DNA of 64,000 nt. It comes from Marilutibacter penaei (lineage in GTDB: Bacteria > Pseudomonadota > Gammaproteobacteria > Xanthomonadales > Xanthomonadaceae). Below are positions 37,336 through 50,884 of this stretch, piece after piece; position 1 is the stretch's first letter, and every line of letters starts with the position of its first letter. The notes under the pieces are model-generated. The model worked only from the letters and a program-made list of their open reading frames with translations, ran no database searches and was not told the DNA's origin. The DNA is taken from positions 62,001 through 126,000 of the forward strand of contig NZ_JACHTE010000007.1 of NCBI RefSeq assembly GCF_014145395.1, written 5' to 3'. Made by a program: the position numbers and the translations under genes.

Positions 37336-37764
37336 ATGATCATCTGGATCCGCAAACCCCTCATCCTCGCCATCCACGAGCGCCAGCTGGCCGAACACGG
37401 CGGCGGCAGCGGCGTGCGCGACGAGGGCCTGCTCGAATCTGCACTCGCGCGGCCGCTGCAGGCGCAGGCCTATGGCGATCCGCCCCCGGACGTGGCGGAC
37501 CTGGCCGCCGCCCTCGCCCATGGGGTGGCCCGCAACCATCCGTTCGTGGACGGCAACAAGCGCACGGCGGCGGTGGCCTGCGAAACCTTCCTGCTGCTCA
37601 ACGGCGCGCGTCTCGACGCGAGCGACCTTGAGCTGTACCCGATGTACATCGCCCTCGCCGACGGCAGCCTCGACGAGGCCGGCTTCGCCGCTTGGCTGCG
37701 CGACCGGATCAAGGTCAGTGCCGCGCGGGTGCAGGAGGCGGCGGCGGAATACGGCGAGCGCTGA
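37336..37764 (+). CDS. doc: Doc (death-on-curing) Fic-family toxin
   Basis: 142 residues. The Doc-type Fic motif is H68-PFVDGNKR76; as in Doc it lacks the second Arg of canonical AMPylating Fic proteins. Doc toxins phosphorylate EF-Tu to stop translation (established for P1 Doc). GGGAGG precedes the ATG. Second gene of the operon under the palindrome at 37067. Immediately downstream begins the A/B palindromic repeat module. Confidence 0.92.
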   Translation: MIIWIRKPLILAIHERQLAEHGGGSGVRDEGLLESALARPLQAQAYGDPPPDVADLAAALAHGVARNHPFVDGNKRTAAVACETFLLLNGARLDASDLELYPMYIALADGSLDEAGFAAWLRDRIKVSAARVQEAAAEYGER

Positions 37765-37806
37765 CTCACGGCGCGTCGTCGACTAGACGTTGGGACGTCG
37801 TCGGAA

Positions 37807-37995
37807 GAAGGAGGTGGCCTTGGTCCGCCTGGACACGCCGTGGATACGTCCTTGTAGGCTCGGGCGCGGCTTGCTCGCCTGCGCAATCCTGCGCAGGCGG
37901 CAAGGCCGGGGCGGGCCATCCATGGCCCACCCGTCCGGCGCGATGCGTCGGACCCCTGCCGCGCACGGTCCAGTCGCACCAAGGCCACCCCCTTC
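37807..37995 (+). repeat. Palindromic element A, copy 1 (enlarged centre)
   Basis: 28-bp arms at 37807-37834 and 37968-37995 are complementary at 25 positions. The conserved core begins ACACGCCGTGGATACGTC and ends GCCGCGCACGG. Where other copies have a simple GCGCGGCATCC hairpin, this copy carries about 90 extra bases with three further hairpins: stems 877-884/891-898, 913-919/922-928 and 933-939/947-953 (last three digits of 37xxx positions). Confidence 0.85.
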
Positions 37996-38085
37996 CCCAA
38001 AAATGCCTGGCGCTTGCGACCAAGGTCAAAAGCAACTCGCGAGCCCGCCGAAGCGACAAAACCGCATGCCGCGACGCCGGCGGTG

Positions 38086-38182
38086 GACGGGGCGGGGGTT
38101 GCGGAGAGTGGGCCACGATGGCCCACGGCCCGATTTAGAGGCAGGACGCCGCCCATGAGGGCGGAGCAACCCCCGCCCCGTC
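38086..38182 (-). repeat. Palindromic element B, copy 1
   Basis: 17-bp perfect outer arms (GACGGGGCGGGGGTTGC and complement) at 38086-38102 and 38166-38182; inner hairpin GTGGGCCA/TGGCCCAC at about 38108-38126. Conserved core includes CTCTCCGC and a GGGCGG...CGTCCTGCC portion when read on the minus strand. Lies 90 bp after A copy 1. With it, this explains the gene-free stretch 37765-38216. Confidence 0.85.
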
Positions 38183-38216
38183 CGGCGACGACTCCGCCCG
38201 AAGCAACCCGCGGAAC

Positions 38217-40982
38217 CTACCGCCGCAATGCCGCCAACAGCGACCGTTCCTCGTCGATGCGGGCCAGATCAGCAGTGTCGTCGGCGTCGCGCTGGTCGGC
38301 GGGGAGGTCCAGCAGCCACTGCACGTCACTGGCACGAATGGCGTCAGCCTCCGCGTCGCGGCCGAGGCGGTCGAGTGCCTCGGCCAGCGCCCAGCCCATC
38401 ACCGGGTCCGGCGGCTCGTCGGGCTCTGCCTCGGCCTGCTGCAGCGTTCGGATGTCGGCCAGCGCCGCCGCCGCACGTGCGTCATGCCCCGCCTGCAGCC
38501 ACGTCAGCGCCTGGATCCGCTCCGCCGCCCGCGTCTGCGGGTGGCCCTCGCCCAGCACCTCGCGCGCCAGCGGCAGCGCCCGTGCGAGCTGCGCCTGCAC
38601 CTCGGCCGGCGGCCGGCCGGCGCGGTGCATCGTGGTGGCGTGGTTGACCTCGACGAAGGCCGTGTCCGGATGCCGCGGGCCGGGGTCGACGCGGCGCGCG
38701 GCCAGCACCTCTTCCTCCAGCACCAGCGCCTCCGCGGTGCGCCCGTCGCGCGCGAGCAGCGCGGCCAGGTTGAGGCGCGTGCGCAGCGTGGCCGGCGCGT
38801 CCTCGCCGAACTGACGGGCGCGGGCGTCCAGCACCTCGCGCATCAGCGGTTCCGCCTCGTCGATCCGGTGCGCGTTGAGCAGCATGTTGGCGAGGTTGCC
38901 GCGCTCGTTGAGGGTGAAGGGGTGCTCGGCCCCCAGCTTGCGCTCGCCCAGGGCCACGCGTTCGGTCTGCAGCGCGACGGCCTCATCGGCATCGCCGTCC
39001 ATGTCGCGCATAACCGCCAGCCGGCCCATGACGACCAGGGTGCGGTTGTCCTCGGCGCCGCGCACGTCGCGCAGGCGCGCATACAGGTCCTCGTGGATGC
39101 GCCGCGCCTCGGCGATGTCGCCCATGCGCGCCATGCTCAGGGCCAGGTCGGCCTGCACGTTGAGCAGCGCCGGGTCGCCCGGCGCGCGGACGGCGGACGC
39201 GTCGTCGTACAGGGCCTGCTGCGCGGCGCGGGCGGCCTCGCGCTCGCCGAGGTTGAACATCGCGATGGCGCGGGTGCGCGCGGCCTCCAGGCGCAGGTCG
39301 TTCCACTCGGCGGCGTCGGCGGCGTCGGGGGGCATGGACCCGGCGCGCGCCAGCACGTCCTCGGCGAGCGCGCGACCGTCGGCAAAGGCATTCGCTTCGA
39401 CGTCGGCCTGTGCCCACGCCTGGCGTGCCTGCAGGGTGTCGAGATGGTCGGCGCCCAGGCGCGCCTCGCGCTCGGTGGCGACGCGCTCGAACACGGTGGC
39501 AGCGGCCGCGGACAGGCCCAGCGCCAGTTGCACGTCGCCGACCGACAGCCGCAGGCGTTCGGCCAGCGCGGGCTGGTCGGCAAAGTCGCGGTCGATCGCG
39601 GCGAGCGCGTTGGCGAGTAGGTGGCGGTCGATCGCCGCGCGCGCGAGGTCGGCGGTGCTGGCCTTGGCGAGCACCGCGTCGAGCTGCGGCATCCGCTCGG
39701 GGGCGTGGTGCCCGATCTGTTCGCGCAGGCCGTCGGACAGGCCCAGGCCCATGCCTTCGATGTCGACGGCTTCAAGCATGGACTGCTGGAAGGCGGCGAC
39801 CTTCTCCAGTTCCGCGCTGCGCTGTTCGGCGATGCGGCGCTGCTCGGTGGCCTGCTGCAAACCATAGAGCGACAGGCCGAGGCCAGCGAGCACGGCGAGC
39901 GCTACGGCGGCGGTGGCGGCCACCGCCAGCCGGTGGCGCCCGAGGAACTTGCGCCAGACATAGCGACGCGTGGCGGGCACGGCCTCGAGCGGGCGACCAT
40001 CGAGGAAACGCTGCAGGTCGGCGGCCAGCGCGGAGGCCGACGGGTAGCGTTCGGCACGGTCGCGTCGCATGGCCCGGGCGACGACCCAGTCGAGTTCGCC
40101 GCGCATGATCCGGCGCAGGTCCCCACGCGGCGTGCCAAGCTGGCGCGCACGCAGGTCGGCGGCCTCCGGCGGCAGGGTGTCGAGGCCCTGCGACAGCGGC
40201 GTCGCGTCGCAGGTATGGATGGCGCGGTCGGTGGACAGGTCGGCCGCCGGACGGTGGCCGGCGATCAGCTCGTACAGCATGACGCCGAGCGAATAGACGT
40301 CGCTGCGGGTGTCGATTTCGACGCCGCCACCATCGAGCCCGGCCTGCTCGGGGCTCATGTAATCCGGCGTGCCGGCGCGGTCGTGGCCGTCGCTGCGCTG
40401 GCCGGCGGTGGCAATGCCGAAGTCGATGATCTTCGGCAGCGGCCGGCCGTCGACCTCGCTGACGAGGATGTTGCCGGGCTTGAGGTCGCGGTGGACGACG
40501 CCCTTCTGGTGGGCGTGCTGCACGCCTTCGCATACGCGGACGAACAGCGCCAGGCGCTCGCGCAGCGGCAGCGCGCGCGTTTCGCAATAGCGGGTCAGGG
40601 GCTCGCCTTCGATGTACTCCATGACGAAGTACGGGTGGCCGTCGCCGGTGGTGCCGGCGTCGTGGACCTGGGCGATCGCCGGGTGGCGCATCTGTGCGAG
40701 CAGCTGGCGTTCGATCTCGAAATGCGCGAGGTGGCGCGCGTCGAGGCGGCGCTGCCGGAGTCGCTTCAAGGCGACGGTGCGGTGCACCGGCTGCAACTGT
40801 TGGGCGCGGTAGACCTCGCCCATGCCACCACGCCCGAGCAGGGCTTCGATGCGGTAGTGGCCGATCATGGCGCCCGGCGGCAGCACGCCGTCGGCGCTGG
40901 CGGCGGACGGGCCGGCGCGGCCCGGCAGCCCTTCGGTCGGCGCGAGGTCGTCGCGCGGGTCTTCGTCGTGGTCGTGGCCCAT
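38217..40982 (-). CDS. Membrane Ser/Thr protein kinase with TPR-rich extracytoplasmic region
   Basis: 921 residues. Kinase domain about 40-320: LLGRGGMGEVYRA glycine loop, K73, HRDLKPGN (164-171), DFG (187-189) and YMSPEQ, all intact. A single membrane helix (about 347-368, RLAVAATAAVALAVLAGLGL) is followed by a C-terminal region of about 530 residues made of degenerate TPR repeats, of the kind seen in PknB-like kinases of this group. Divergent from an FHA-GGDEF gene with 121 bp between, suggesting phospho-dependent partnership. Confidence 0.92.
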   Translation of the reverse strand: MGHDHDEDPRDDLAPTEGLPGRAGPSAASADGVLPPGAMIGHYRIEALLGRGGMGEVYRAQQLQPVHRTVALKRLRQRRLDARHLAHFEIERQLLAQMRHPAIAQVHDAGTTGDGHPYFVMEYIEGEPLTRYCETRALPLRERLALFVRVCEGVQHAHQKGVVHRDLKPGNILVSEVDGRPLPKIIDFGIATAGQRSDGHDRAGTPDYMSPEQAGLDGGGVEIDTRSDVYSLGVMLYELIAGHRPAADLSTDRAIHTCDATPLSQGLDTLPPEAADLRARQLGTPRGDLRRIMRGELDWVVARAMRRDRAERYPSASALAADLQRFLDGRPLEAVPATRRYVWRKFLGRHRLAVAATAAVALAVLAGLGLSLYGLQQATEQRRIAEQRSAELEKVAAFQQSMLEAVDIEGMGLGLSDGLREQIGHHAPERMPQLDAVLAKASTADLARAAIDRHLLANALAAIDRDFADQPALAERLRLSVGDVQLALGLSAAAATVFERVATEREARLGADHLDTLQARQAWAQADVEANAFADGRALAEDVLARAGSMPPDAADAAEWNDLRLEAARTRAIAMFNLGEREAARAAQQALYDDASAVRAPGDPALLNVQADLALSMARMGDIAEARRIHEDLYARLRDVRGAEDNRTLVVMGRLAVMRDMDGDADEAVALQTERVALGERKLGAEHPFTLNERGNLANMLLNAHRIDEAEPLMREVLDARARQFGEDAPATLRTRLNLAALLARDGRTAEALVLEEEVLAARRVDPGPRHPDTAFVEVNHATTMHRAGRPPAEVQAQLARALPLAREVLGEGHPQTRAAERIQALTWLQAGHDARAAAALADIRTLQQAEAEPDEPPDPVMGWALAEALDRLGRDAEADAIRASDVQWLLDLPADQRDADDTADLARIDEERSLLAALRR

Positions 40983-41103
40983 CGTGTTCCCCCTGCCCTG
41001 TCCCCGTCGGTTCGCGCTCCGTGCAGGCCGATCCTACCGGATGCGCCGGGGCGGGGCCTTGCGGCCTTGGGCTACACTCGGGCGCGTTGCGACGCTGATC
41101 CCC

Positions 41104-42000
41104 ATGAGCGACCAGAACACCGACCCCACCACCCTGCAACCGACCCAGCCGAGCCCCGGTCCCCGCCGGGGCGCGCCGCGTTCGGCCTGCGTGGTGGTGA
41201 TCCACGGCGAGGGCCTGGGCAAGCGCGCGGACATCGACGGCACGCCGCTGCTGATCGGCCGCGCGCAGGAGGCCGACCTGTGCCTGCCGGGCAAGTCGGT
41301 GTCGCGCCGGCACTGTGAGATCCGTCAGTCGGGCGAGGACTACCTGCTGCGCGACCTGGGCGCGACCAACACGACGCGCCTCAACGAGCAGCCGGTCGAC
41401 GAGGCGGTGCTGGCGGACGGCGACCACGTGACGGTAGGCGAAACGATCCTGAAGTTCATCAGCGACTCCAGCGTGGAGGCCCATTACCACGAGGAGGTCT
41501 ACCAGCTGGCGACGCACGATGCGCTGACGGAGCTGTGCAACCGGCGGCACTTCATCGAGCTGGCGGACAAGGAGATCGCGCGGGCACAACGGCACGCGCG
41601 GCCGCTGGCGCTGTGCATCGTCGACGTGGATCTGTTCAAGCCGGTCAACGACCAGTACGGGCATATCGCGGGCGACGGGGTGCTGCGGCGGATCGCGATG
41701 GTGATGCGCGAGCTGGTGCGCGGCGAGGACCTGGCGGCGCGGATCGGCGGCGAGGAGTTCGCGGTGCTGTTGCCGGAGGCGGACCTGGACGCGGCGGCGC
41801 ATTTCGCGGAGCGGCTGCGGGCGGCGGTGGCGGCGGAGCCGTTCGTGCTGGGCGGTGAAGCGCGGCGGCTGACGGTCAGCATCGGGATCGCGGGGCTGTC
41901 GACGGCGCACGGGAGTCGCAGTCGCTTGATGCAGGCGGCGGACGCGGCGCTGTACCGGGCGAAGGAATCGGGTCGCGACCGGGTGTGCGTGCAGGGGTGA
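41104..42000 (+). CDS. FHA-GGDEF diguanylate cyclase
   Basis: 298 residues from ATG 41104. FHA domain about 28-120 with LIGRAQEADLCLPGKSVSRR and the phospho-Thr-binding SRRH, then GGDEF about 135-298 with an intact GGEEF and an RGED inhibitory site five residues earlier. FHA domains bind phosphothreonine, and a Ser/Thr kinase gene is divergent next door, so phospho-signal-controlled c-di-GMP synthesis is a natural reading (inference). Followed by the second repeat cluster. Confidence 0.93.
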   Translation: MSDQNTDPTTLQPTQPSPGPRRGAPRSACVVVIHGEGLGKRADIDGTPLLIGRAQEADLCLPGKSVSRRHCEIRQSGEDYLLRDLGATNTTRLNEQPVDEAVLADGDHVTVGETILKFISDSSVEAHYHEEVYQLATHDALTELCNRRHFIELADKEIARAQRHARPLALCIVDVDLFKPVNDQYGHIAGDGVLRRIAMVMRELVRGEDLAARIGGEEFAVLLPEADLDAAAHFAERLRAAVAAEPFVLGGEARRLTVSIGIAGLSTAHGSRSRLMQAADAALYRAKESGRDRVCVQG

Positions 42001-42045
42001 ATTCGGTACGGGCGAAGAGCCCTGGGCCTGCAGATACGCAGGTGT

Positions 42046-42153
42046 GAAGGGGGTGGGTAGGCCCTCCTTGGACACGCCGTAAATACATCCTTGTAGGCTC
42101 GAGCGCGGCATCCTTGCCGCGCACGGTCCAAGGACGCCCTACCCACCCCCTTC
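42046..42153 (+). repeat. Palindromic element A, copy 2
   Basis: 28-bp arms at 42046-42073 and 42126-42153 complementary at 26 positions; arm sequence differs from the other copies. Core begins ACGCCGTAAATACATCC and ends with the hairpin GCGCGGCA/TGCCGCGC. Confidence 0.87.
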
Positions 42154-42273
42154 TCCGAAGCAGTGCGGCCGTTCGCGACATAAGGCTAAGGGCGGACATC
42201 GGATGTCCGCGACACGTCCAGAAGCCGGCAGCAACAAGAAACCGCGAAACCTGACGCCGCGACGCCGGCGGTG

Positions 42274-42370
42274 GACGGGGCGGGGGTTGCGGAGAGTGGG
42301 CCACGATGGCCCACGGCCCGATTTAGAGGCAGGACGCCGACCATGAGGGCGGAGCAACCCCCGCCCCGGC
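42274..42370 (-). repeat. Palindromic element B, copy 2
   Basis: Near-identical to B copy 1: 17-bp arms at 42274-42290 and 42354-42370 (one mismatch), inner hairpin GTGGGCCA/TGGCCCAC. 120 bp after A copy 2, in the same relative orientation as A1-B1. Confidence 0.87.
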
Positions 42371-42449
42371 CGGCGACGGCCCCGCCCGAAGCGGCACGAT
42401 CTTTCCCCGGCTGCGGTCGTTGGCCTGACACGGGCCACCCACTGTCGAG

Positions 42450-42555
42450 ACGCCGGCGGGCTTGCCGTGGCGGGACCGTGCGCGGCATGGATGCCGCGCC
42501 CGAGCCTACATGGACGTATTTACGGCGTGTCCCGGCATGGCAGGCCCGCCGGCTT
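42450..42555 (-). repeat. Palindromic element A, copy 3 (inverted, no B partner)
   Basis: 27-bp arms at 42450-42476 and 42529-42555 complementary at about 23 positions, enclosing the reverse-oriented core (GTGCGCGGCATGGATGCCGC at its left). With A2 and B2 it fills the gene-free stretch 42001-42581. Confidence 0.8.
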
Positions 42556-42581
42556 CCCACGCGAACCGTGCCGACCAAGGA

Positions 42582-43298
42582 CTACGACGCCAATCGGGTA
42601 CGTCCCCACGGCAATCGCCCCCGGAACACCACCAGATAGACCGATACCGTCCACAGGCTCGCGGCGGCCCAGCCGGCCAGGATGTCGGACGGGTAATGCA
42701 CCCCAAGGTACAGCCGCGACATCCCGACCAGGAAGACGAACGGCCCGGCAACGCCCACCACCCACCATCGGGCGCGCGTCGGCCACGCCAGCAGCACCAG
42801 CACCCAGGCCAGCGTCATCGAACCCATCGCATGGCCGCTGGGGAAACTGTAGTTGTGCTCGGGTGCGATCGACTCCCACAGTGCAGGCCGCGCACGTGCG
42901 AACAACAGCTTCGTGCCCATGTTGAGCAGCCCCGAGCCCGCCAGCGCCACGCCCGCGAAGATCGCCTCCCGGTACCGGCGCGCGGTGGCCAGCCCCACCG
43001 TCAGCAGGATGTCGAACGGGACCACGAACCAGGTGTAGCCCAGCTGCGTCACCGTCACGAAGAAGCGGTCCAGGGTCGGGTGGGAGCGATCGTACAGCCA
43101 ATGCAGGATCGCATCGTCGAAGGGAATCGCTTCGTTCTCGTGGATCTCGTCGGCCAGTTCCGCAAAGCCCCACATCGGCAACAGCAGCCCGACGAACAGC
43201 AGCACCACCATCCAGGCGCGTCGGCGGACGAACGCCGCGATCGCGGCGATCGCGTCGTCGAACCTGCCGCGATCCTCGTCCGGGGTGCCCTCAGGCAT
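42582..43298 (-). CDS. PAP2-family membrane phosphatase
   Basis: 238 residues from ATG 43298 (GTG 43313 possible). Five to six membrane helices. Phosphatase motifs are complete: [17 protein letters not shown] and [12 protein letters not shown]. Probably dephosphorylates undecaprenyl-pyrophosphate or phosphatidate at the inner membrane. Its start overlaps the ispG stop by 8 nt, which would couple isoprenoid-precursor synthesis to polyprenyl-lipid recycling (inference from position). Confidence 0.88.
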
Positions 43299-44586
43299 CA
43301 AGCGACGCACCACCGAACTTGCGCTCGACGTAGCGGTCGATCAGCTCGACGAACTCGCGGGCGATGCCTTCGCCGCGCAGGGTGACGGTCTTCTCGCCGT
43401 CCTCGAACACCGGGGCGGACGGCGCTTCGCCGGTGCCCGGCAGCGAGATGCCGATGTTGGCGTGGCGCGATTCGCCCGGGCCGTTGACCACGCAGCCCAT
43501 CACCGCGAGGGTCAGGTTCTCGGCGCCCGGGTGCGTCACCTTCCACTCCGGCATCTTCGCGCGCACGTGGTTCTGCACCTGCTGCGCGAGTTCCTGGAAA
43601 AAGGTGCTGGTGGTGCGGCCGCAGCCCGGGCAGGCGGTGACCATCGGCGTGAACGCGCGCAGGCCCATGGTCTGCAACAGTTCCTGCGCGACGATCACCT
43701 CGTTGCTGCGCGCCTGGCCCGGCTCGGGCGTGAGCGAGATGCGGATGGTGTCGCCGATGCCCTCCTGCATCAGCACCGCGAGCGCGGCACTGGAGGCGAC
43801 GATGCCCTTGCTGCCGATGCCGGCTTCCGTCAGGCCCAGGTGCAGCGCATGGCGGCCGCGGCGCGCGAGTTCGCGATACACGGCGATCAGCTCCTGCACG
43901 CCGCTGACCTTGGCGCTGAGGATGATGCGGTCGGTGGGCAGGCCGATCTCCTCGGCACGTGCGGCCGAATCCAGCGCTGAGCGGATCAAAGCCTCGCGCA
44001 GGACTTCCGCGGCTTCGCGCGGCTGCGCCAGCAGGTGGTTCTCGTCCATGAGCTTCGCCGCCAGCGCCTGGTCGAGCGAGCCCCAGTTGGCGCCGATCCG
44101 GACCGGCTTGCCGTGCTGGATCGCGAGTTCGATCAGGGTCGCGAACTGGCTGTCCTTCTTCTTGCCGAAGCCGACGTTGCCGGGGTTGATGCGGTACTTG
44201 GCCAGCGCTTCGGCGCAGGCCGGCTCGGCGGTGAGCAGCTGGTGCCCGTTGTAGTGGAAGTCGCCGATGATCGGCACTTCGATCCCCATCATCGCCAGCT
44301 TGTCGACGATGCGCGGCACGGCGGCGGCGGCCTCGACGGTGTTGACGGTGACGCGGACCATCTCGGAGCCGGCGCGCCACAGCTCGGCGACCTGCTTGAC
44401 CGTCGAGGCGACGTCGGCGGTGTCGGTGTTGGTCATCGACTGCACCACCACCGGCGCACCGCCGCCCACCCGGACCTTGCCGATCTGGACACCCGTGGTG
44501 TCGCGGCGCGGCGCGGGGCCGAAAGCAGGCGTGGCGCAGGGCAGCGGAACGGGGTCGGCGGGCATGGCGGGAACGGCAGCAGGCAT
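43291..44586 (-). CDS. ispG: 4-hydroxy-3-methylbut-2-enyl-diphosphate synthase
   Basis: 431 residues from ATG 44586. [19 protein letters not shown]-terminus, [12 protein letters not shown], and the [4Fe-4S] ligands in TACPGCGRT and GCVVNGPGE. The penultimate step of the MEP isoprenoid pathway, needing reduced flavodoxin or ferredoxin. The first 25 residues are Pro/Ala-rich. Overlaps the PAP2 gene. Confidence 0.97.
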
Positions 44587-44637
44587 GGGCCCTATTCTAG
44601 GTTCTTCGCCCGCATGCGGCGAGGTGGGCATGAAAAA

Positions 44638-44665
44638 GCCCCCGCCGGCCGAAGTCGACGGGGGC
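44638..44665 (-). terminator. Intrinsic terminator of the DUF1254/DUF1214 gene
   Basis: Stem GCCCCCG/CGGGGGC extended by CG pairs past one mismatch. On the minus strand a five-T run follows (44637-44633). 40 bp after the stop of the lipoprotein gene and 52 bp ahead of the ispG start. Confidence 0.85.
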
Positions 44666-44705
44666 ACGATGACCGGCGCGCCGGGGCGCGGCATCGGACC
44701 GGTCG

Positions 44706-45935
44706 TTACTCCTTGACGACCTCGATCGCGGTGCCGTCCGCCTCGAACGCTTCGATGTACGCCAGCATCGACGGGAAGTCCGTGGGCCGGTAGAAACGGA
44801 TGGTCACGTTCCAGGCCCCCTTTTTCGTGTCGATGTTGTTGGCCATGCCCGGGCAGTTGAAACGGAAGGTCACGCTGCCGTCCGGGTTGGCCTCGGCATT
44901 GCGGCTGCTGAGCGCGTAGTTCTCGGTGGCGATGAAGGCATCAGGCCCGTACGCGGTCGCCGAGAAGAAGCCGCCCTTGTCGAAGTCCAGCGGCGGTTCC
45001 TTCAGGGTCAACTGGGAACAGGCACCCTCCAGCGCTTCCGGACCCGGCACGAACTTGGGCCAGTAGACCGCATGCTCCCTGGGCAGGCCGGCCCAGCCAC
45101 CGGCGGCCGCGATGATGAACTGCTCGGGATCGACCACGTCCTTGGTGCCGAAGGCCTCCCAGGAGTTGACCTTGGCGGCCTGGGTCAGCAACTCGGAGCG
45201 GACCGCGTCGAGGCTGGCACGGTCGAAGCCCTTGGTCGGATACGGAACCGCCGACTTGGCGTCGATGATGTAGGCATCCTGGTGGCGATGGGCATCCGCC
45301 CAGCCTTCCTCGCTGTTCGGCCGGACTTCGGTGCGGATGTTGAGCCAGACGTAGTTGCCGAAGCTGAGGTCGTCCGGGGTCAGGGTGATGGACTCACCCG
45401 GGTAGAGGTGGGCGAAGGAATACTGGTTCTCATCCATGATCTGGATGATCGAGTAGTTGGCCCATTCCGGGTTGGTGATGGTGGCGCCTTCGGACACGTC
45501 GACCACGGCATGGCTGTAGAGCGCGTCCTGGTTCTCGCGGATCACCACCTGGTTGTCGACGGTGGAGTACTCGCGGGAATGGCGGATCCTGTTGATCGGG
45601 ATCTTCTCGCTGTGCTCGGCGAAGTACTTGTCGGTCTCGGCGACGACGAAGTTCTCCTCGGTCACGATGATCTTGCCGTCGGGCGTGCGACCGGCCGACG
45701 TGACCCACTGTTCGGTGTCCGCCTGGCCCATCTCCACCAGTGGCGCGGGCTTCGGGAAGTTGCCGGACTTCTCTTCCGGGGTCTGGGCCGGGCCCGATGC
45801 GGCTTGTTCGGCCGGTGCGGCGTCGGTCGTTTCAGCGGGGGCCACCGCGGGGCCCGCGTCGGTGTCGGTATCCGTCTTTGAACAGGCGGCGAGGACGAGA
45901 CTCGCGCACAGTGCCGCCAACAAGGTCTTTTTCAT
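44706..45935 (-). CDS. DUF1254/DUF1214 lipoprotein
   Basis: 409 residues from ATG 45935. Lipoprotein signal with LVLAAC lipobox, an Asp/Thr/Ala-rich linker, then the DUF1254 part (about 75-190; [20 protein letters not shown]) and DUF1214 C-terminus (about 300-400; [11 protein letters not shown] and [17 protein letters not shown]). Family members are exported proteins of unknown biochemical role, likely periplasmic. Its own terminator follows. Confidence 0.83.
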
Positions 45936-46138
45936 GCAGGTTCTCCAATCCGGGGAGGGCAAGCGCCCGCGGCCGGCGACCCGATGCATCGGGACCTGGC
46001 TTCGTGAACGGGGCCGGGCCATGAAACGCGACGGAAGGTAAAACGGATGTGAACCCCGGCGCGCGCCCGCACATCGCGATCCCTACGTGCGACCGATTGA
46101 CGCATGGGCGGCGTATGCCGGTGGCTTAGCATGTGCGC

Positions 46139-47362
46139 ATGCCCGCGCCCGTCCCGTCCTTGCTGCGCTCCCTATGCACCCTGCGCTGGTGCGCCGTCGC
46201 CGGCCAGGCCGCCACCGTCGCCCTGGCCACCGGCCCGCTGCAGATGCCCCTGCCGGCCGCGCCCCTGTGGGGCGGGATCGCTGCGCTGGCGCTGTTCAAC
46301 CTCGCGGCAAGCGTGCATGCCCGACGGCACCCGGATGGGGTCGCGCCGGCGGCGGTCTTCCTGCACCTGCTGGTCGACATCGTGGTGCTGGCCTGGCTGA
46401 TCGCCTGGAGTGGCGGCATCGCCAATCCGTTCAGTTCCATGTTCCTGATCCCGATCGCGCTGGCCGCCCCCGCGCTGCCGCCGCGGTGGGTCTGGGCCAC
46501 CGCCGCGGCCAGCCTGGGCGGCTTCGTCCTGGCCACCCTGCTCGCGCGGCCGCTGGCGCATGCCCATGGCGACGCCTTCAACCTGCACCTGTGGGGCATG
46601 GCGGTGAACTTCGTGGTGTCGGCCGCGGTGGTGCTGTTCTTCTCGCTGCGACTGGTCGGTGCGCTGCGGCGGCGCGAGCGCGAGCTTGCGGAGCTGCGCG
46701 AGAAGTTCGCGCGCAATGAAGGCATCGTCGCGCTCGCCACGCACGCGGCGGCGGTCGCGCACGAGCTCAACACGCCACTGGCCACGATGACCCTGCTCGC
46801 CGACGAGATCGCCGAGGCGGCGCGCCCAACCCTGCCGGCCGTGGTGGAGGACGCCACGACCCTGCGGCAGCTGCTCGACCAGTGCCGTGACCGCGTACGC
46901 GCACTCGCCTCGCAGGCCGACCCGCAGCGGGTGTCTCCCGAATCGCTGGCCCAGGTGATCGAGCGCTGGCAGCTGGTGCGCCCGGAAGTGGCCTTGTCCA
47001 TCAATGACCGCCTGCCGGTGGGTTTCGCGGTCGAGCCTGCAGTCGGTCACCTGCTGCAGGCCCTGCTCAACAACGCGGCCGACGCCAGCGAGGCGGTCGA
47101 CGACCCGCGGGTGGAACTGGACCTGTCCGAGCGCGACGGCTGGCTGGTCGGCGAAGTGCGCGACCATGGCCGTGGCTTCGAGGCCGGCCTGCCCTTCGCC
47201 CCGGATGCGCTGTTCCGCAGCAGCAAGCCCGACGGACTGGGGGTGGGCCTGGCGCTCTCGCATGCGACGGTGGAGCGGCTTGGCGGACGGCTGACCTCGC
47301 GGCAGGCCGCGCCCGGCCTGCGGGTCCGCTTCGAGCTGCCGCTGGCCAGGGAGGTGCGATGA
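46139..47362 (+). CDS. regB: RegB/PrrB-type redox sensor histidine kinase
   Basis: 407 residues from ATG 46139 (GTG 46133 also possible). Six N-terminal membrane helices with the GGIANPFSS quinone-sensing loop (RegB GGxxNPF motif), a dimerisation domain with H208 in AHELNTPLATM, and C249 41 residues on, matching the spacing of H225 and the redox-active C265 in Rhodobacter RegB. The ATPase domain has NNAADAS, DHGRGF and GLGVGLALS. Should autophosphorylate when the quinone pool is reduced. It overlaps regA by ATGA. Confidence 0.9.
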   Translation: MPAPVPSLLRSLCTLRWCAVAGQAATVALATGPLQMPLPAAPLWGGIAALALFNLAASVHARRHPDGVAPAAVFLHLLVDIVVLAWLIAWSGGIANPFSSMFLIPIALAAPALPPRWVWATAAASLGGFVLATLLARPLAHAHGDAFNLHLWGMAVNFVVSAAVVLFFSLRLVGALRRRERELAELREKFARNEGIVALATHAAAVAHELNTPLATMTLLADEIAEAARPTLPAVVEDATTLRQLLDQCRDRVRALASQADPQRVSPESLAQVIERWQLVRPEVALSINDRLPVGFAVEPAVGHLLQALLNNAADASEAVDDPRVELDLSERDGWLVGEVRDHGRGFEAGLPFAPDALFRSSKPDGLGVGLALSHATVERLGGRLTSRQAAPGLRVRFELPLAREVR

Positions 47363-47931
47363 GCGACACGATCCGTGCGCACGGCCTGATCGTCGATGAC
47401 GACGTCCTCTACGCGCGCACCCTGCAGCGCGCCCTCGCGCGGCACGGCGTGGAGACACGGCTCGCGCATGATGCGGCGACGGCGCTGGTGCTGGCGCGCG
47501 AGGCGACGCCGGACTTCGCGCTCGTCGACCTGAAGCTGGGCGAGGACTCTGGGCTGGTCCTGATCGCGCCGCTGCGCGAGGTCGACGCCCACATGCGGAT
47601 CCTGCTGGTGACCGGCTATGCCAGCGTCGCCACCGCGGTGGAGTCCATCAAGCGCGGGGCCGACGATTACCTGCCCAAGCCCGCGACGGTGCCGGCGATC
47701 CTGCGTGCGCTGGGACTGGAGACGGATACCGCCGACGCCGGGAATGAACCGGCGACGCCGGAGCGGATGATCCCGCTGCAGCGCCTGGAATGGGAGCACA
47801 TACAGCAGGCGCTGCAGGAGACCGACGGCAACGTCTCCGCCGCCGCGCGCCTGCTCGGCATGCACCGGCGTTCGCTGCAGCGCAAGCTGGGCAAGCGCCC
47901 GGGTCCGGAGCGCAAACCGGACCCGGACTGA
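47359..47931 (+). CDS. regA: RegA/PrrA-type response regulator
   Basis: 190 residues. REC domain: LIVDDDV, phosphoacceptor Asp in FALVDLKLGEDSG, VTGYAS, and Lys in YLPKPA. The C-terminal Fis-type helix-turn-helix (ALQETDGNVSAAARLLGMHR, then RSLQRKL) is nearly universal in RegA. It controls redox-responsive genes with the kinase next to it. An eight-base hairpin (47901-47924) lies in its last codons and may serve as a terminator; the receptor gene converges 7 bp away. Confidence 0.92.
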   Translation: MSDTIRAHGLIVDDDVLYARTLQRALARHGVETRLAHDAATALVLAREATPDFALVDLKLGEDSGLVLIAPLREVDAHMRILLVTGYASVATAVESIKRGADDYLPKPATVPAILRALGLETDTADAGNEPATPERMIPLQRLEWEHIQQALQETDGNVSAAARLLGMHRRSLQRKLGKRPGPERKPDPD

Positions 47932-47938
47932 GGCCGGA

Positions 47939-50107
47939 TCAGAAACGTGTGTGCACCGCCACTTCCAGCGCGCGCGGCTCGCCCAGGTACACCATGCTCG
48001 CGTTGTTGGCGTAGGCGATCCAGGTCTTGTCGGTGAGGTTGCGGGCGCGCAGGGTCAGCGTGGTGTTCTCGCCCCAGGCCCACTTGAGGTTCGCGCCATA
48101 GAGCGTGTAGCCGGCGCCGCGGATCGTGTTGGCGTTGTCGGCATAGCGCGAAGATACCGAACGCAAGTCAACGCCCGCCGACCAGCCCGGTGCGAACACA
48201 TAGTCCAGCCACAGGTTGGCGACCTGCTCCGGGGTGTTGCGCGGGGTGTTGCCAGCGCGCGACACCGGCACGCCGCCGACCGTCTCGTAAAAGTCATCGA
48301 GGCTGGCGTCGACCCAGCCGAGGTTGCCCTCGACAGTCAGGCCTTCGAACGGGCGCATGCCGAAGGTCGCTTCGGCACCGGTGCTGGACTGCTGGCCCAC
48401 CGGCAAGGTCTGGCCGGCGTTGTTGGGATCAGGCGTGGACAGGTTCTCGCGGACCAGGTCGTACACCGCGAGGCTGCCCCAGTAGCGCCCATCGGCACTC
48501 TGCAGCTTGGTGCCCAGCTCGAACTGGCGGCCGGTGGTCAGGTCGAAGTCGCGCACGGCGCCGAAGCTGGCGGTGCTGAGCACGCCGGACGGCGGGTCGG
48601 CCGCGGTAGCCACCTGCAGGTAGGCGTTGAAACCCGGGGCGAAGCGGTAGTCCAGCGCCAGGCGGCCGGTCAAGGCGCTGTAGTCGTGTGCAAAGCGGGC
48701 CGGGTTGCTGGCGCTCGGTGCCTGGTGGTTCTCCAGGTCGAGCTGGATCCACTCCTGCCGCAGGGCCGACATCAGCGACCAGCGCTCGTTGAAACGGGTC
48801 AGGTTCTCGACGAACAGGGCCTGGCCGTGGACGCGGTTGGTCCGCTGCGGGACGAAGGTCTGCGATGCACCGGGATAGTCGAACCAGCTGCCGGGCGTGA
48901 CCGAATCGACCGGAACGACATCGAGGTCGCCGGACAGGGATTGCGGGAAACGGGTCTGCCGGTTGTAGTTGACGTCGAGGCCGGCGACCCACTGGGTCGG
49001 GTAGCTGCCGAGGGTGCCGTCCCAGGCCAGGTCGAGGCGATCGCCAAAGACCTGCTGGTCGTGCCGCTGCAGCAGCCCGCAGGAGCGGATCACGCCCGTC
49101 AGGTCGGCGGTGAAGCGGTAGCACTCGACGTTGCGGTAATCGCGCAGGGCGTCGTAGGTGTACGCGGTGTTACGCAGGCTGAGCGCGTCGGACAGCCGCC
49201 AGTCGAGCAGCGAGCGCGCCCACAGCACGTCCTGCTTGTAGTAACCGTCGCCGATGTTGTAGTTGCGGTCCCCGGTGCCGGGCAGCACCTTCAGTCGCAG
49301 GTCGTCGGTCAGCAGCGCGGGCGTGCCCCAGTAGATGCGGGCGCTGTCTTCCTGCTGGTACTCGACGGCCAGTGTGTGGACGGCGCGGTCGCCGATGCGC
49401 GCGGCCCATGACAGGGCCGAGGTCAGCGACTCGCGGTCGTTGCCTTCGATCCAGCCGTTGGTGTTCGACCAGCTGACGTCCCCTCGCAGCGCGTGGCGTC
49501 CGCTGGCGAAGGTCTGGTTGACGCCGGCGGCAAGCAGCACGCTGTCGTTCGACCCGTAGGACAGCTTGCCTTCGACCCGGTCGGTGTCGAGGTCGGCGAC
49601 GCGGGTGACGTAGTTGATCGAGCCGCCCACTGCGCCGGCACCGTAGAGGAAGCTGGACGGGCCGCCGATGGCTTCGACGCGCTCGTAGATCCAGGCATCG
49701 ACCGGGCGCGCGGCAATGGTGGCGTACTTCACGTCGATCCCGTTGAACAGCTGCGAGATCTGCGAGCCGGAGAAGCCGCGGTAGCTGACATTGTTGCCAT
49801 TGCCGGGCGGGGCGACGGCATCCAGCCCGGGCACCGCGCGCAGGGCTTCTGCGGTGGTGCGTACGTCGCGTGCGTCGAGCAGGTCGCGGGTCACGACGGT
49901 GACCGACGCCGGGATGTCCTGCAGGCTGAGGTCGAGGGCGGTGCCGCCACTGGCGCGAACGTCGTTGCGGCCGGACGTGCCGGTCACTTCAATCGTGTCG
50001 AGAGTGGTGGCCTGCATACCGCCTGCATCGTCGGCCTGGGCCGGCATGGACAGGATCAGCAGGAGCGCGGCGGCCAGCGGGGCGCGGTGGAGGTTGACGT
50101 GGGGCAT
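47939..50107 (-). CDS. TonB-dependent siderophore receptor
   Basis: 722 residues. Signal peptide 1-25, TonB-box-like DTIEVTG, plug domain about 55-165 (DIPASVTVVTRDLL and GGPSSFLYGAGAVGGSINYV), then a 22-strand barrel ending in VAVHTRF with the terminal aromatic residue. The plug layout is of the siderophore-receptor subfamily; the ligand is unknown. No Fur box was resolved upstream: the 800 bp before the start are filled by the repeat block. Confidence 0.92.
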   Translation of the reverse strand: MPHVNLHRAPLAAALLLILSMPAQADDAGGMQATTLDTIEVTGTSGRNDVRASGGTALDLSLQDIPASVTVVTRDLLDARDVRTTAEALRAVPGLDAVAPPGNGNNVSYRGFSGSQISQLFNGIDVKYATIAARPVDAWIYERVEAIGGPSSFLYGAGAVGGSINYVTRVADLDTDRVEGKLSYGSNDSVLLAAGVNQTFASGRHALRGDVSWSNTNGWIEGNDRESLTSALSWAARIGDRAVHTLAVEYQQEDSARIYWGTPALLTDDLRLKVLPGTGDRNYNIGDGYYKQDVLWARSLLDWRLSDALSLRNTAYTYDALRDYRNVECYRFTADLTGVIRSCGLLQRHDQQVFGDRLDLAWDGTLGSYPTQWVAGLDVNYNRQTRFPQSLSGDLDVVPVDSVTPGSWFDYPGASQTFVPQRTNRVHGQALFVENLTRFNERWSLMSALRQEWIQLDLENHQAPSASNPARFAHDYSALTGRLALDYRFAPGFNAYLQVATAADPPSGVLSTASFGAVRDFDLTTGRQFELGTKLQSADGRYWGSLAVYDLVRENLSTPDPNNAGQTLPVGQQSSTGAEATFGMRPFEGLTVEGNLGWVDASLDDFYETVGGVPVSRAGNTPRNTPEQVANLWLDYVFAPGWSAGVDLRSVSSRYADNANTIRGAGYTLYGANLKWAWGENTTLTLRARNLTDKTWIAYANNASMVYLGEPRALEVAVHTRF

Positions 50108-50130
50108 GGGGCTTCCGGGTGGGAAAAGCC

Positions 50131-50207
50131 CGCGCAGCCTAAGGATTCAGGCGCCGTTTGCCGATGCGACGCAGTGTCGCACCCTGACTGTGCGCTCGTT
50201 CCGGAAG
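50131..50207. repeat. Direct repeat C, copy 1
   Basis: 77 bp repeated, nearly exact, at 50488-50565. Contains CCTAAGGATTCAGGCGCCG and a hairpin TGCGAC-GCAGT-GTCGCA. It sits just upstream of the TonB receptor start, so copy 1 may include its leader or promoter. Confidence 0.85.
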
Positions 50208-50246
50208 AGCTCCAAATGCAACTTTCTTGCGGAGGGCCCATCGGAA

Positions 50247-50356
50247 GAAGCCGGTAGCCCAAGGCTTTGCGTGACACGCCGTAAACCCGTCCTTGGGGGC
50301 TCGGGCGCGGCATCCATGCCGCGCACGGTCACGCAAAGCCTTGGGCCACCGACTTC
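50247..50356 (+). repeat. Palindromic element A, copy 4
   Basis: 29-bp arms at 50247-50275 and 50328-50356 complementary at 27 positions; core ACGCCGTAAACCCGTCC with the GCGCGGCATCCATGCCGCGC hairpin. Confidence 0.87.
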
Positions 50357-50425
50357 CCGACAGCGAGCGGGCGCTTTGTTAAGCATCCGAAGCCCCAACC
50401 TGCGCGGTCGCAGAAAGCGCCGTTC

Positions 50426-50460
50426 GACGGGGTGGGGGTTGCGGAGAGCAGCCCATGGGT
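50426..50460 (-). repeat. Element B, truncated copy 3
   Basis: Keeps one outer arm (GACGGGGTGGGGGTTGC) and the adjacent GGAGAGCA core with a shortened hairpin CAGCCCATGGGTG, then breaks off before the second arm. 69 bp after A copy 4, in the A-then-inverted-B order. Confidence 0.75.
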
Positions 50461-50487
50461 GAACCAAGGCCGTTTGCGCGGCACTGC

Positions 50488-50565
50488 CGCGCGGCCTAAG
50501 GATTCAGGCGCCGTTTGCCGATGCGACGCAGTGTCGCACCCTGGCTGTGCGCTCTTTTCCGGAAG
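50488..50565. repeat. Direct repeat C, copy 2
   Basis: Matches copy 1 over 78 bp with a few substitutions and one inserted base near the end (CTCTTTTCC versus CTCGTTCC). Copies 1 and 2 flank A4 and truncated B3, as if duplicated by an insertion. Confidence 0.85.
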
Positions 50566-50611
50566 GAACCTCAACCAATGGAGAGCGGCTTCGGATGGAG
50601 TCGCCGCCCGC

Positions 50612-50704
50612 CGGGATGGGGGTTGCTCCGCCCTCCTGACGACGTCCTGTCGTGAAGTCGGGTCGCAGACCATCCTTGGTCTGCTCTCCGCAACCCCCAT
50701 CCCG
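50612..50704 (+). repeat. Palindromic element B, copy 4
   Basis: 15-bp perfect outer arms at 50612-50626 and 50690-50704 (CGGGATGGGGGTTGC and complement); inner hairpin GCAGACCA/TGGTCTGC. Both stems differ in sequence from B1/B2 yet stay paired. Confidence 0.87.
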
Positions 50705-50775
50705 TCGACCGGCGCCATCGGCGAGAGTGGAGGTCTGGGTTTCGGTCACTCCTGATGGCTACTGCAGAACTTCGA

Positions 50776-50884
50776 GAAGCCGGTGGCCTAGGGGATCGCG
50801 TGACCGTGCGCGGCATGGATGCCGCGCCCGAGCCCCATGGATGGGTTCACGGCGTGTCACGCGGGCCCCTAGGCCACCGGCTTC
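50776..50884 (-). repeat. Palindromic element A, copy 5 (inverted)
   Basis: 29-bp arms at 50776-50804 and 50856-50884 complementary at 27 positions. Read on the minus strand, A5 is followed 71 bp later by inverted B4, the same module order as at the other loci. Completes the 823-bp gene-free stretch 50108-50930. Confidence 0.87.

Follow-up and report, generated by a model that had tools for sequence, protein, structure and literature searches.

A dispersed, divergently paired RNA-like module of Marilutibacter penaei, apparently related to TwoAYGGAY and possibly recognized by CsrA/RsmA

A 64,000-nucleotide stretch of the Marilutibacter penaei genome (RefSeq assembly GCF_014145395.1, contig NZ_JACHTE010000007.1, positions 62,001 to 126,000 of the forward strand; here called the window, whose first letter is position 1) carries, between 37807 and 50884, two kinds of palindromic repeats designated A and B. 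The best reading of these repeats, to which we give a probability of about one half, is that they are dispersing RNA modules that are probably bound by CsrA/RsmA. The modules would spread as, or inside, non-autonomous mobile elements, and are located at the 3' side of genes more than in gaps between divergently oriented ones, frequently as a pair that points apart. Owing to this divergent pairing, a transcript entering from either direction would contain one sense module, whichever way the insertion was transcribed. The transcribed strand bearing the GGA motifs (the GGA strand) would then most likely bind CsrA/RsmA dimers, and serve as a decoy or as a local mark on the mRNA. We infer that this strand is transcribed, acts as RNA, binds CsrA and affects the host or the element. 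An earlier, sequence-only reading had described four composite units, each an A followed by an inverted B in fixed order, plus one unpaired A, and had left the choice between a mobile element and DNA encoding a folded RNA.

On its GGA strand, A is a three-way-junction module in which a variable outer stem and two ANGGAY-loop hairpins meet at a conserved junction. One arm of a stem of about 27 bp is followed by GAC, a 10-bp hairpin (P2) with the loop ATGGAT, AGCC, a second hairpin (P3), a bulge, GGC, GT, GTC and the other stem arm. P3 is a 3-bp hairpin with an ANGGAY loop, followed by the bulge TTYAC, and occurs as TAC/GTA, CCC/GGG or TCC/GGA, while P2 reads CGTGCGCGGC/GCCGCGCCCG (with one T·C mismatch) or TTTCCGCAAC/GTTGCGGAAA. 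From one copy to the next, the sequences of the inner hairpins and of the outer stem vary in concert. In four of the window copies, the arms pair over 28-29 bp with 89-93% complementarity and their sequences differ from copy to copy, as had been noted before. B has the same layout, with a stem of up to 28 bp, GGAGAG, P2, CGACCCGACTT and P3; it was studied in 22 copies, 16 of them from the window's genome, the other 19 of 41 pattern hits having been dropped by eye as chance. The loops of both kinds are typically ANGGAN and closed by a C-G pair, each kind is also found without the other, and the two are best explained as variants of a single type of structured RNA module. P2 was absent from every search pattern; even so, of 119 well-paired rows of A, 118 have ANGGA in the P2 loop and 110 have a C-G pair closing it, with the rest of the P2 stem variable. 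The genome-wide search for the A core that had been proposed earlier returned 27 cores by pattern and none with the reversed pattern; the copy near 50830, one base short in the core, was missed by the pattern and adds to the 27.

The fold is borne out by compensatory changes. From 223 candidate rows, aligned without gaps, 119 with at least 85% pairing were kept, and 78 of these were less than 80% identical to one another. In the 78 rows, 95.0% of the cells are paired, double changes occur at 41 of 43 pairs (35.1 expected from shuffles), and the covariation score is 0.867, compared with 0.192±0.008 for shuffles and 0.11-0.15 for slid partners. Without the pairing filter (152 of 219 rows), 74.5% are paired versus 38-46% with slid partners, and double changes are seen at 42 of 43 pairs. 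For each of three window copies of A, none of 200 shuffled sequences folded as well (z -9.6 to -10.3).

A functional RNA tolerates G·U pairs in its stems, not A·C, and the two swap when the opposite strand is read. Among 182 copies of A with at least 18 of 28 Watson-Crick pairs, the mismatches on the GGA strand comprised 318 G·U and 102 A·C (p 6e-27); summed over the innermost 23 stem positions of the same copies, the counts were 264 and 30, the excess of A·C being confined to the outer stem end, which lies beyond the stem of many copies. When a single copy per named locus was taken, the innermost 23 positions gave 144 G·U and 20 A·C in 97 loci. Because the stem mismatches are G·U on that strand, the selected strand of A is the GGA strand, opposite to the core written in the sequence-only reading. 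Copies whose two neighboring genes both oppose A in direction (83:27) show much the same bias as copies whose neighbors both share its direction (71:16), so that the bias is not a by-product of host transcription. Covariation and strand bias together support the earlier suggestion of DNA for a folded RNA.

Judged from model matches and alignment, A is a divergent relative of TwoAYGGAY (Rfam RF01731), so that the idea of a form without any described relative is not supported. TwoAYGGAY was listed in 2010 from the human gut, gammaproteobacteria and Clostridiales (PMC2864571), and a motif scan by Gardner and Eldai put forward CsrA binding for it (PMC4333381). One feature expected of family members, a three-way junction with two GGA hexaloops, is present in A. 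In the alignment of L197, a copy from the same-genus genome G005, P1, P2, the AG before P3 and the CGG after P3 all match TwoAYGGAY, and this copy scored 46.0 bits both in the genome search and in cmscan. Eight of the nine RF01731 matches in G005 fall on A cores, two of these eight being above the cut-off. The window's genome has one copy of its own, at C16:67179-67300 (L198), with 44.3 bits against a cut-off of 43, which was lost in cmscan with fast filters; the A copies of the window were not matched by RF01731, and the best matches in genomes G029 and G039 fall off A cores. B is not filed as a TwoAYGGAY member, because neither RF01731 nor R1, the covariance model of A built in the present analysis, finds it (B copy 4 was unmatched by RF01731 at E values up to 10, though the A copies nearby were missed as well); B appears to share the layout only. 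In two genomes of the same order (L196 and L199, positions 1501-1607 of each), a TwoAYGGAY match lies about 365 nucleotides downstream of the RNase P RNA gene.

The consensus site of the RNA-binding protein CsrA/RsmA is CANGGANG, and an ANGGAN loop closed by a C-G pair fits the form that this protein recognizes. The window's genome has one csrA gene.

The modules are patchily spread in multiple copies. The A core (up to 2 mismatches) occurs in 7 of 40 genomes, the window's own included, with 0 to 74 copies. Under stricter filters, R1 matches 74 of 369 genomes of the class (taken from named matches as Gammaproteobacteria), again including the window's own, in 66 of 272 genera, and the exact A pattern was found in at least 120 stretches of named genomes. 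Xanthomonas, Stenotrophomonas, Microbulbifer, Marinobacter, Cellvibrio, Alcanivorax, Zobellella, Oceanisphaera, Alteromonas, Halopseudomonas and others are among the matches listed. Across genera, the loops and junction of A are conserved. One gap between convergent genes could be compared in 31 loci, mainly from a single genus, taken as Stenotrophomonas from named matches: 11 have 73-151 bp and no element, and in the remaining 20 the gap measures 261-640 bp, with the A pattern present in 17 of these. Species differences in the arms at this gap involve entire matching blocks; by eye, L232 and L236 resemble hybrids with unmatched arms. Copies of A therefore seem to exchange halves through their shared core, and part of the arm variety between loci may stem from this exchange.

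Two neighboring modules tend to point apart. Among 224 pattern hits taken without an arm filter, 38 of the 53 A-A neighbors less than 600 bp apart are divergent, 8 convergent and 7 tandem, and A-B and B-B pairs are also mostly divergent. Seven of the 16 B copies of the window's genome have an upstream A core in the opposite sense, and four more (L002, L004, L006 and L039) have an A recognizable by BLAST, also divergent; L008 has a 3-mismatch A match in the other sense, probably by chance, and L038 has two divergent B modules. By eye, the copies resemble one another in the A-B spacer as well, which makes A-B a real composite in the window's genus. In genomes G003 and G005, B next to A is divergent in all four loci (L049, L054, L055 and L061); the pairs counted in other genera are A-A. 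Divergent orientation of two modules is thus a steadier rule than the fixed A-B order proposed earlier, as A-A pairs, B-B pairs and single modules all occur. At L086 (3159-3697, uncultured Saccharophagus), four A modules stand in tandem, about 180 bp apart and in one direction. At a Stenotrophomonas locus, L140 and its orthologues, a repetitive extragenic palindrome (REP) of the GTAG type lies between two A modules, and a variable TTTGGC repeat lies outside them.

Evidence of mobility comes from other genomes. Five equal-scoring copies in genome G660 belong to a common unit of about 165 bp, which is 97-100% identical among them, and their surroundings are unrelated. The 17-bp inverted ends of the unit are CAGCAATTCCCARTTTG and the inverse of this sequence, and 9-10-bp direct repeats flank it. 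The end sequence has 371 matches (up to 3 mismatches) in this genome, versus 50 for a control pattern, which suggests about 150 or more elements. A sample of 35 loci, the five initial ones and the first 30 exact end matches, yielded 29 distinct complete elements, all 29 with an A core (up to 4 substitutions) and 21 with 9-10-bp target duplications, as compared with none of 812 swapped flanks; six loci were one-ended, four of them with an A core. Elements longer than 165 bp contain extra hairpin units in the P2 loop, and GGA hairpins on the strand opposite to A are found in 19 of 19 longer elements and in 0 of 10 basic ones. With inverted ends and target duplications both present, the A module is in G660 the body of a 165-bp miniature inverted-repeat transposable element (MITE); no autonomous partner was seen in the nine loci examined. 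The A module is bounded by CTAAATACGTGTTCCGAAT repeats in genome G447 and by CGTTTTCAATRAGG repeats in G479, with no target duplication evident in either. At L286/L287 of G447, the element ends read CTA...TAG, which would fit insertion into CTAG with TA duplicated, unlike the 9-10 bp of G660. The inverted repeats of these three genomes are unrelated, so that the same core travels with unrelated ends. Among the named loci, inverted repeats just outside the stem score 11 or more in 11 of 137, versus 0 of 677 controls, that is, in a minority of loci.

These same observations are the strength of the view that the modules are a purely structural body of mobile elements, whose hairpins aid transposition or make gene-adjacent insertions harmless, with no part for CsrA. 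The near-identical G660 copies with their terminal inverted repeats and duplications, the presence of A between unrelated repeats in G447 and G479, and the range from 0 to 74 copies among 40 relatives would all be expected of it. A transposase, however, should select ends rather than the letters of loops and junction, whereas it is the core that is kept across genera and the ends that differ, and the loop consensus fits the CsrA site position by position. We consider this view unlikely, though it deserves to be taken seriously.

The surroundings of the modules bear on a second alternative, that they are 3'-untranslated-region elements: two-way terminators, stabilizers of mRNA 3' ends, or substrates of RNase III by way of the 27-bp stem. 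Among named loci, with genes called by a simple codon-usage script rather than taken from annotation, the divergent kind makes up only 9 of 88 gaps with A, compared with 41 of 149 gaps lacking it (p 0.0016), and the convergent kind as many as 31 of 88, compared with 33 of 149 (p 0.034), as such elements would have it. A terminator, on the other hand, needs neither conserved GGA loops nor a conserved junction, the strand bias is independent of host gene direction, and the sole terminator-like site in 37700-42700 lies outside the modules, one being expected by chance. This alternative is improbable.

In a third alternative, the folded strand would function in the form of single-stranded DNA, its hairpins being sites of action for a recombinase or an HUH transposase, as with attC and REP sites. 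Folded single-stranded DNA also tolerates G·T better than A·C, so the observed bias would arise if the GGA strand folded as DNA, and the G660 modules do lie in mobile elements. Terminal inverted repeats and 9-10-bp duplications, such as the G660 copies show, are nevertheless typical of DDE transposition of duplex DNA. A search of eight genomes for Y1_Tnp transposases, the check for a RAYT-type transposase that had been recommended, located 19 loci in seven of them, with no recognizable A within about 1.5 kb and only chance-like 4-mismatch matches, and genome G003 has A cores and no Y1_Tnp match; mobilization of A by REP/RAYT or TIRYT was rejected on the same count (0 of 19). In three S. maltophilia genomes, the Y1 transposases are accompanied by inverted repeats of a different sequence. 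The single-stranded-DNA account is accordingly given little credence. Lastly, functionless palindromes whose arms are kept complementary by template-switch repair can hardly be the answer, for while block-wise arm differences at one locus and the unmatched hybrids L232 and L236 are what they would produce, such repair would give G·T and A·C equally, the ratio of 264:30 needs selection on one strand, and loops and junction are conserved across genera.

Several results weigh against the reading of the modules as dispersing, CsrA-binding RNA. Its mobile part rests on other genomes: in the window's own, inverted repeats flanking the stem (score 10 or more) were found at 0 of 22 copies versus 6 of 462 controls, and duplications in the flanks of 22 single copies and in the outer flanks of seven A-B composites were at chance. 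The earlier idea of a non-autonomous mobile element consequently holds for the G660 MITE, not by any sign of insertion in the window's genome, where mobility would be inferred. As to the RNA part, the strand bias favors RNA as the acting form of the GGA strand without amounting to proof. In B the bias is weak (29:16, p 0.07; 28:8 after two mis-anchored rows were dropped by eye), and, as read by eye, 6 of its 22 copies have lost the GGA of the P2 loop (one by deletion) and 3 of the 22 that of P3. No sigma-70-like site was found in 37700-42700, in a scan that left out the 50-kb cluster and other promoter types. RF01731 has no match in genome G023, with its 74 A cores, and just one in the window's genome. 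The range of 0 to 74 copies among 40 relatives is unexpected for a needed sponge RNA. A csrA gene is present in 61 of 62 module-bearing genomes checked and also in 16 of 18 genomes without a model match; being near universal in the class, it is uninformative, and the comparison could only have spoken against the CsrA idea. The GGA losses of B, the lack of a promoter match and the loose copy number favor a selfish or neutral role, and for this reason our confidence is set at one half.

In the window, the modules form three groups. The first (37807-38192) lies between convergent genes for a Fic family protein and a kinase-TPR protein. A copy 1 (37807..37995, GGA strand minus) has its P2 hairpin loop enlarged by a nested hairpin module (37871..37957, minus, boundaries by eye), and B copy 1 (38077..38192, plus) is divergent to it, with a P2 loop devoid of GGA (CACGATG). 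The second group (42046-42560) lies between convergent FHA-GGDEF and PAP2 genes and contains A copy 2 (42046..42153, minus), B copy 2 (42265..42380, plus; 93% identical to B copy 1 over 155 bp) and A copy 3 (42447..42560, plus; L003). The A near 42500 formerly called unpaired is the last of these; it stands head-to-head with, and divergent to, A copy 2, with B copy 2 between. The third group, at about 50 kb, follows a BNR-repeat gene on its 3' side and lies upstream of a TonB receptor gene. It consists of A copy 4 (50247..50356, minus), the 5' half of a B (50416..50459, plus), a complete B copy 4 (50604..50715, minus; L007) with the P2 loop AAGGAT, and A copy 5 (50776..50884, plus), which is divergent to B copy 4 and has a predicted fold of -87 kcal/mol (z -9.6). 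The B reported at 50418 is thus present in the orientation given, as a 5' half only, since it breaks off within the P2 hairpin loop, where a REP-like sequence (ATGG|GTGA...) begins, comparable to L014. Four A-B modules and a fifth A were otherwise recovered as first described, R1 finding all five A copies: at 50249-50354(-), 42047-42152(-), 42450-42555(+) and 50778-50882(+), and A copy 1 weakly at 37816-37907(-), with 35.5 bits, because of the 87-nucleotide insertion in that copy.

This insertion, which lies within the 133-nucleotide loop near 37850, contains two further GGA-loop hairpins (ATGGAT and AGGATT), in a layout resembling the insertions in L238 and L241. Nested units in the P2 loop of A are seen in L238, L241, L155, L168 and window 37871-37957, that is, in the window's genome and in Stenotrophomonas-like loci; they bear more hairpins with AGGAC, AGGACA or AGGATT loops and end in GAGCAAG or GAGCAA. 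The REP-like palindrome starting at ATGG|GTGA sits in the GGA hexaloop of P2 of B or P3 of A in L014 (the G000:C9:257803 region), L236 and window 50455-50461, as if these hexaloops were its insertion targets. A 71-bp direct repeat (96% identity) is found at window 50130-50200 and 50487-50557, one copy directly upstream of the TonB receptor gene and the other within the A-B cluster, beside the REP-like sequence that breaks B. At gathering cut-offs, a scan of the window with Rfam returned two tRNAs only; matches to a microRNA, Ysr224 and one PhotoRC-I in permissive scans were far below cut-offs and were judged to be chance. When A copy 5 was compared by BLAST with 72,556 plasmid and 50,697 phage records, no match was returned.

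Since 2010, TwoAYGGAY has stood among the listed structured RNAs with no role assigned to it. Finding a close relative that is a dispersed, strand-selected and often head-to-head repeat, and that in one genome or more forms a MITE body, gives it a biology. In a bolder version of the reading, a CsrA-binding RNA domain would be a recurrent cargo of unrelated gammaproteobacterial MITEs, whose transcripts capture CsrA and whose head-to-head arrangement secures a sense copy either way, so as to form a sponge network; this we regard as tentative. If true, there would be a transposon-borne CsrA sponge network, with a size of 0 to 74 copies that differs between related species. If CsrA does bind, mobile elements would seed the sites of a global regulator through genomes, and sponge load could be counted from sequence alone. 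A literature search brought up no paper tying TwoAYGGAY or CsrA to MITEs in its title, abstract opening or retrieved passages.

Among known systems, the bacterial MITEs NEMIS/Correia, ERIC and RUP share with the modules that they are short, non-coding, intergenic and hairpin-forming, and the G660 copies further share inverted repeats and target duplications with MITEs. The modules are unlike NEMIS/Correia, ERIC and RUP in having a conserved three-way-junction body common to elements with unrelated ends, and the copies of the window's genome differ from MITEs in that inverted repeats and duplications are not above chance. The sequestering small RNAs CsrB, RsmX, RsmY, RsmZ and RsmU resemble A in that their hairpin loops present more than one GGA motif and that the genome has csrA; B shares these loops, with losses (6 and 3 of 22). 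Such small RNAs are encoded by one or few genes per genome, unlike A; for the modules, no sigma-70-like promoter was found in the scanned 37700-42700. REPs of the GTAG type with RAYT, and TIR with TIRYT, are described by Di Nocera (2013, PMC3733652) as palindromic, located at gene 3' ends and arranged in head-to-head dimers, as the modules are; they differ in a length of 20-40 bp and a GTAG or CGTC tag (PMC3733652). From TwoAYGGAY, A departs in that position 2 of the loop accepts all four bases (ANGGAY), P3 is a short hairpin bearing a UUYAC bulge, and most copies in the window's genome are missed by the Rfam model; dispersed repeats, head-to-head pairs and MITE cargo do not figure in the passages available from accounts of TwoAYGGAY. 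Common to both are the long, poorly conserved outer stem, the three-way junction, two GGA-loop hairpins closed by C-G, the AG before P3 and the CGG after it, and an occurrence in gammaproteobacteria (PMC2864571).

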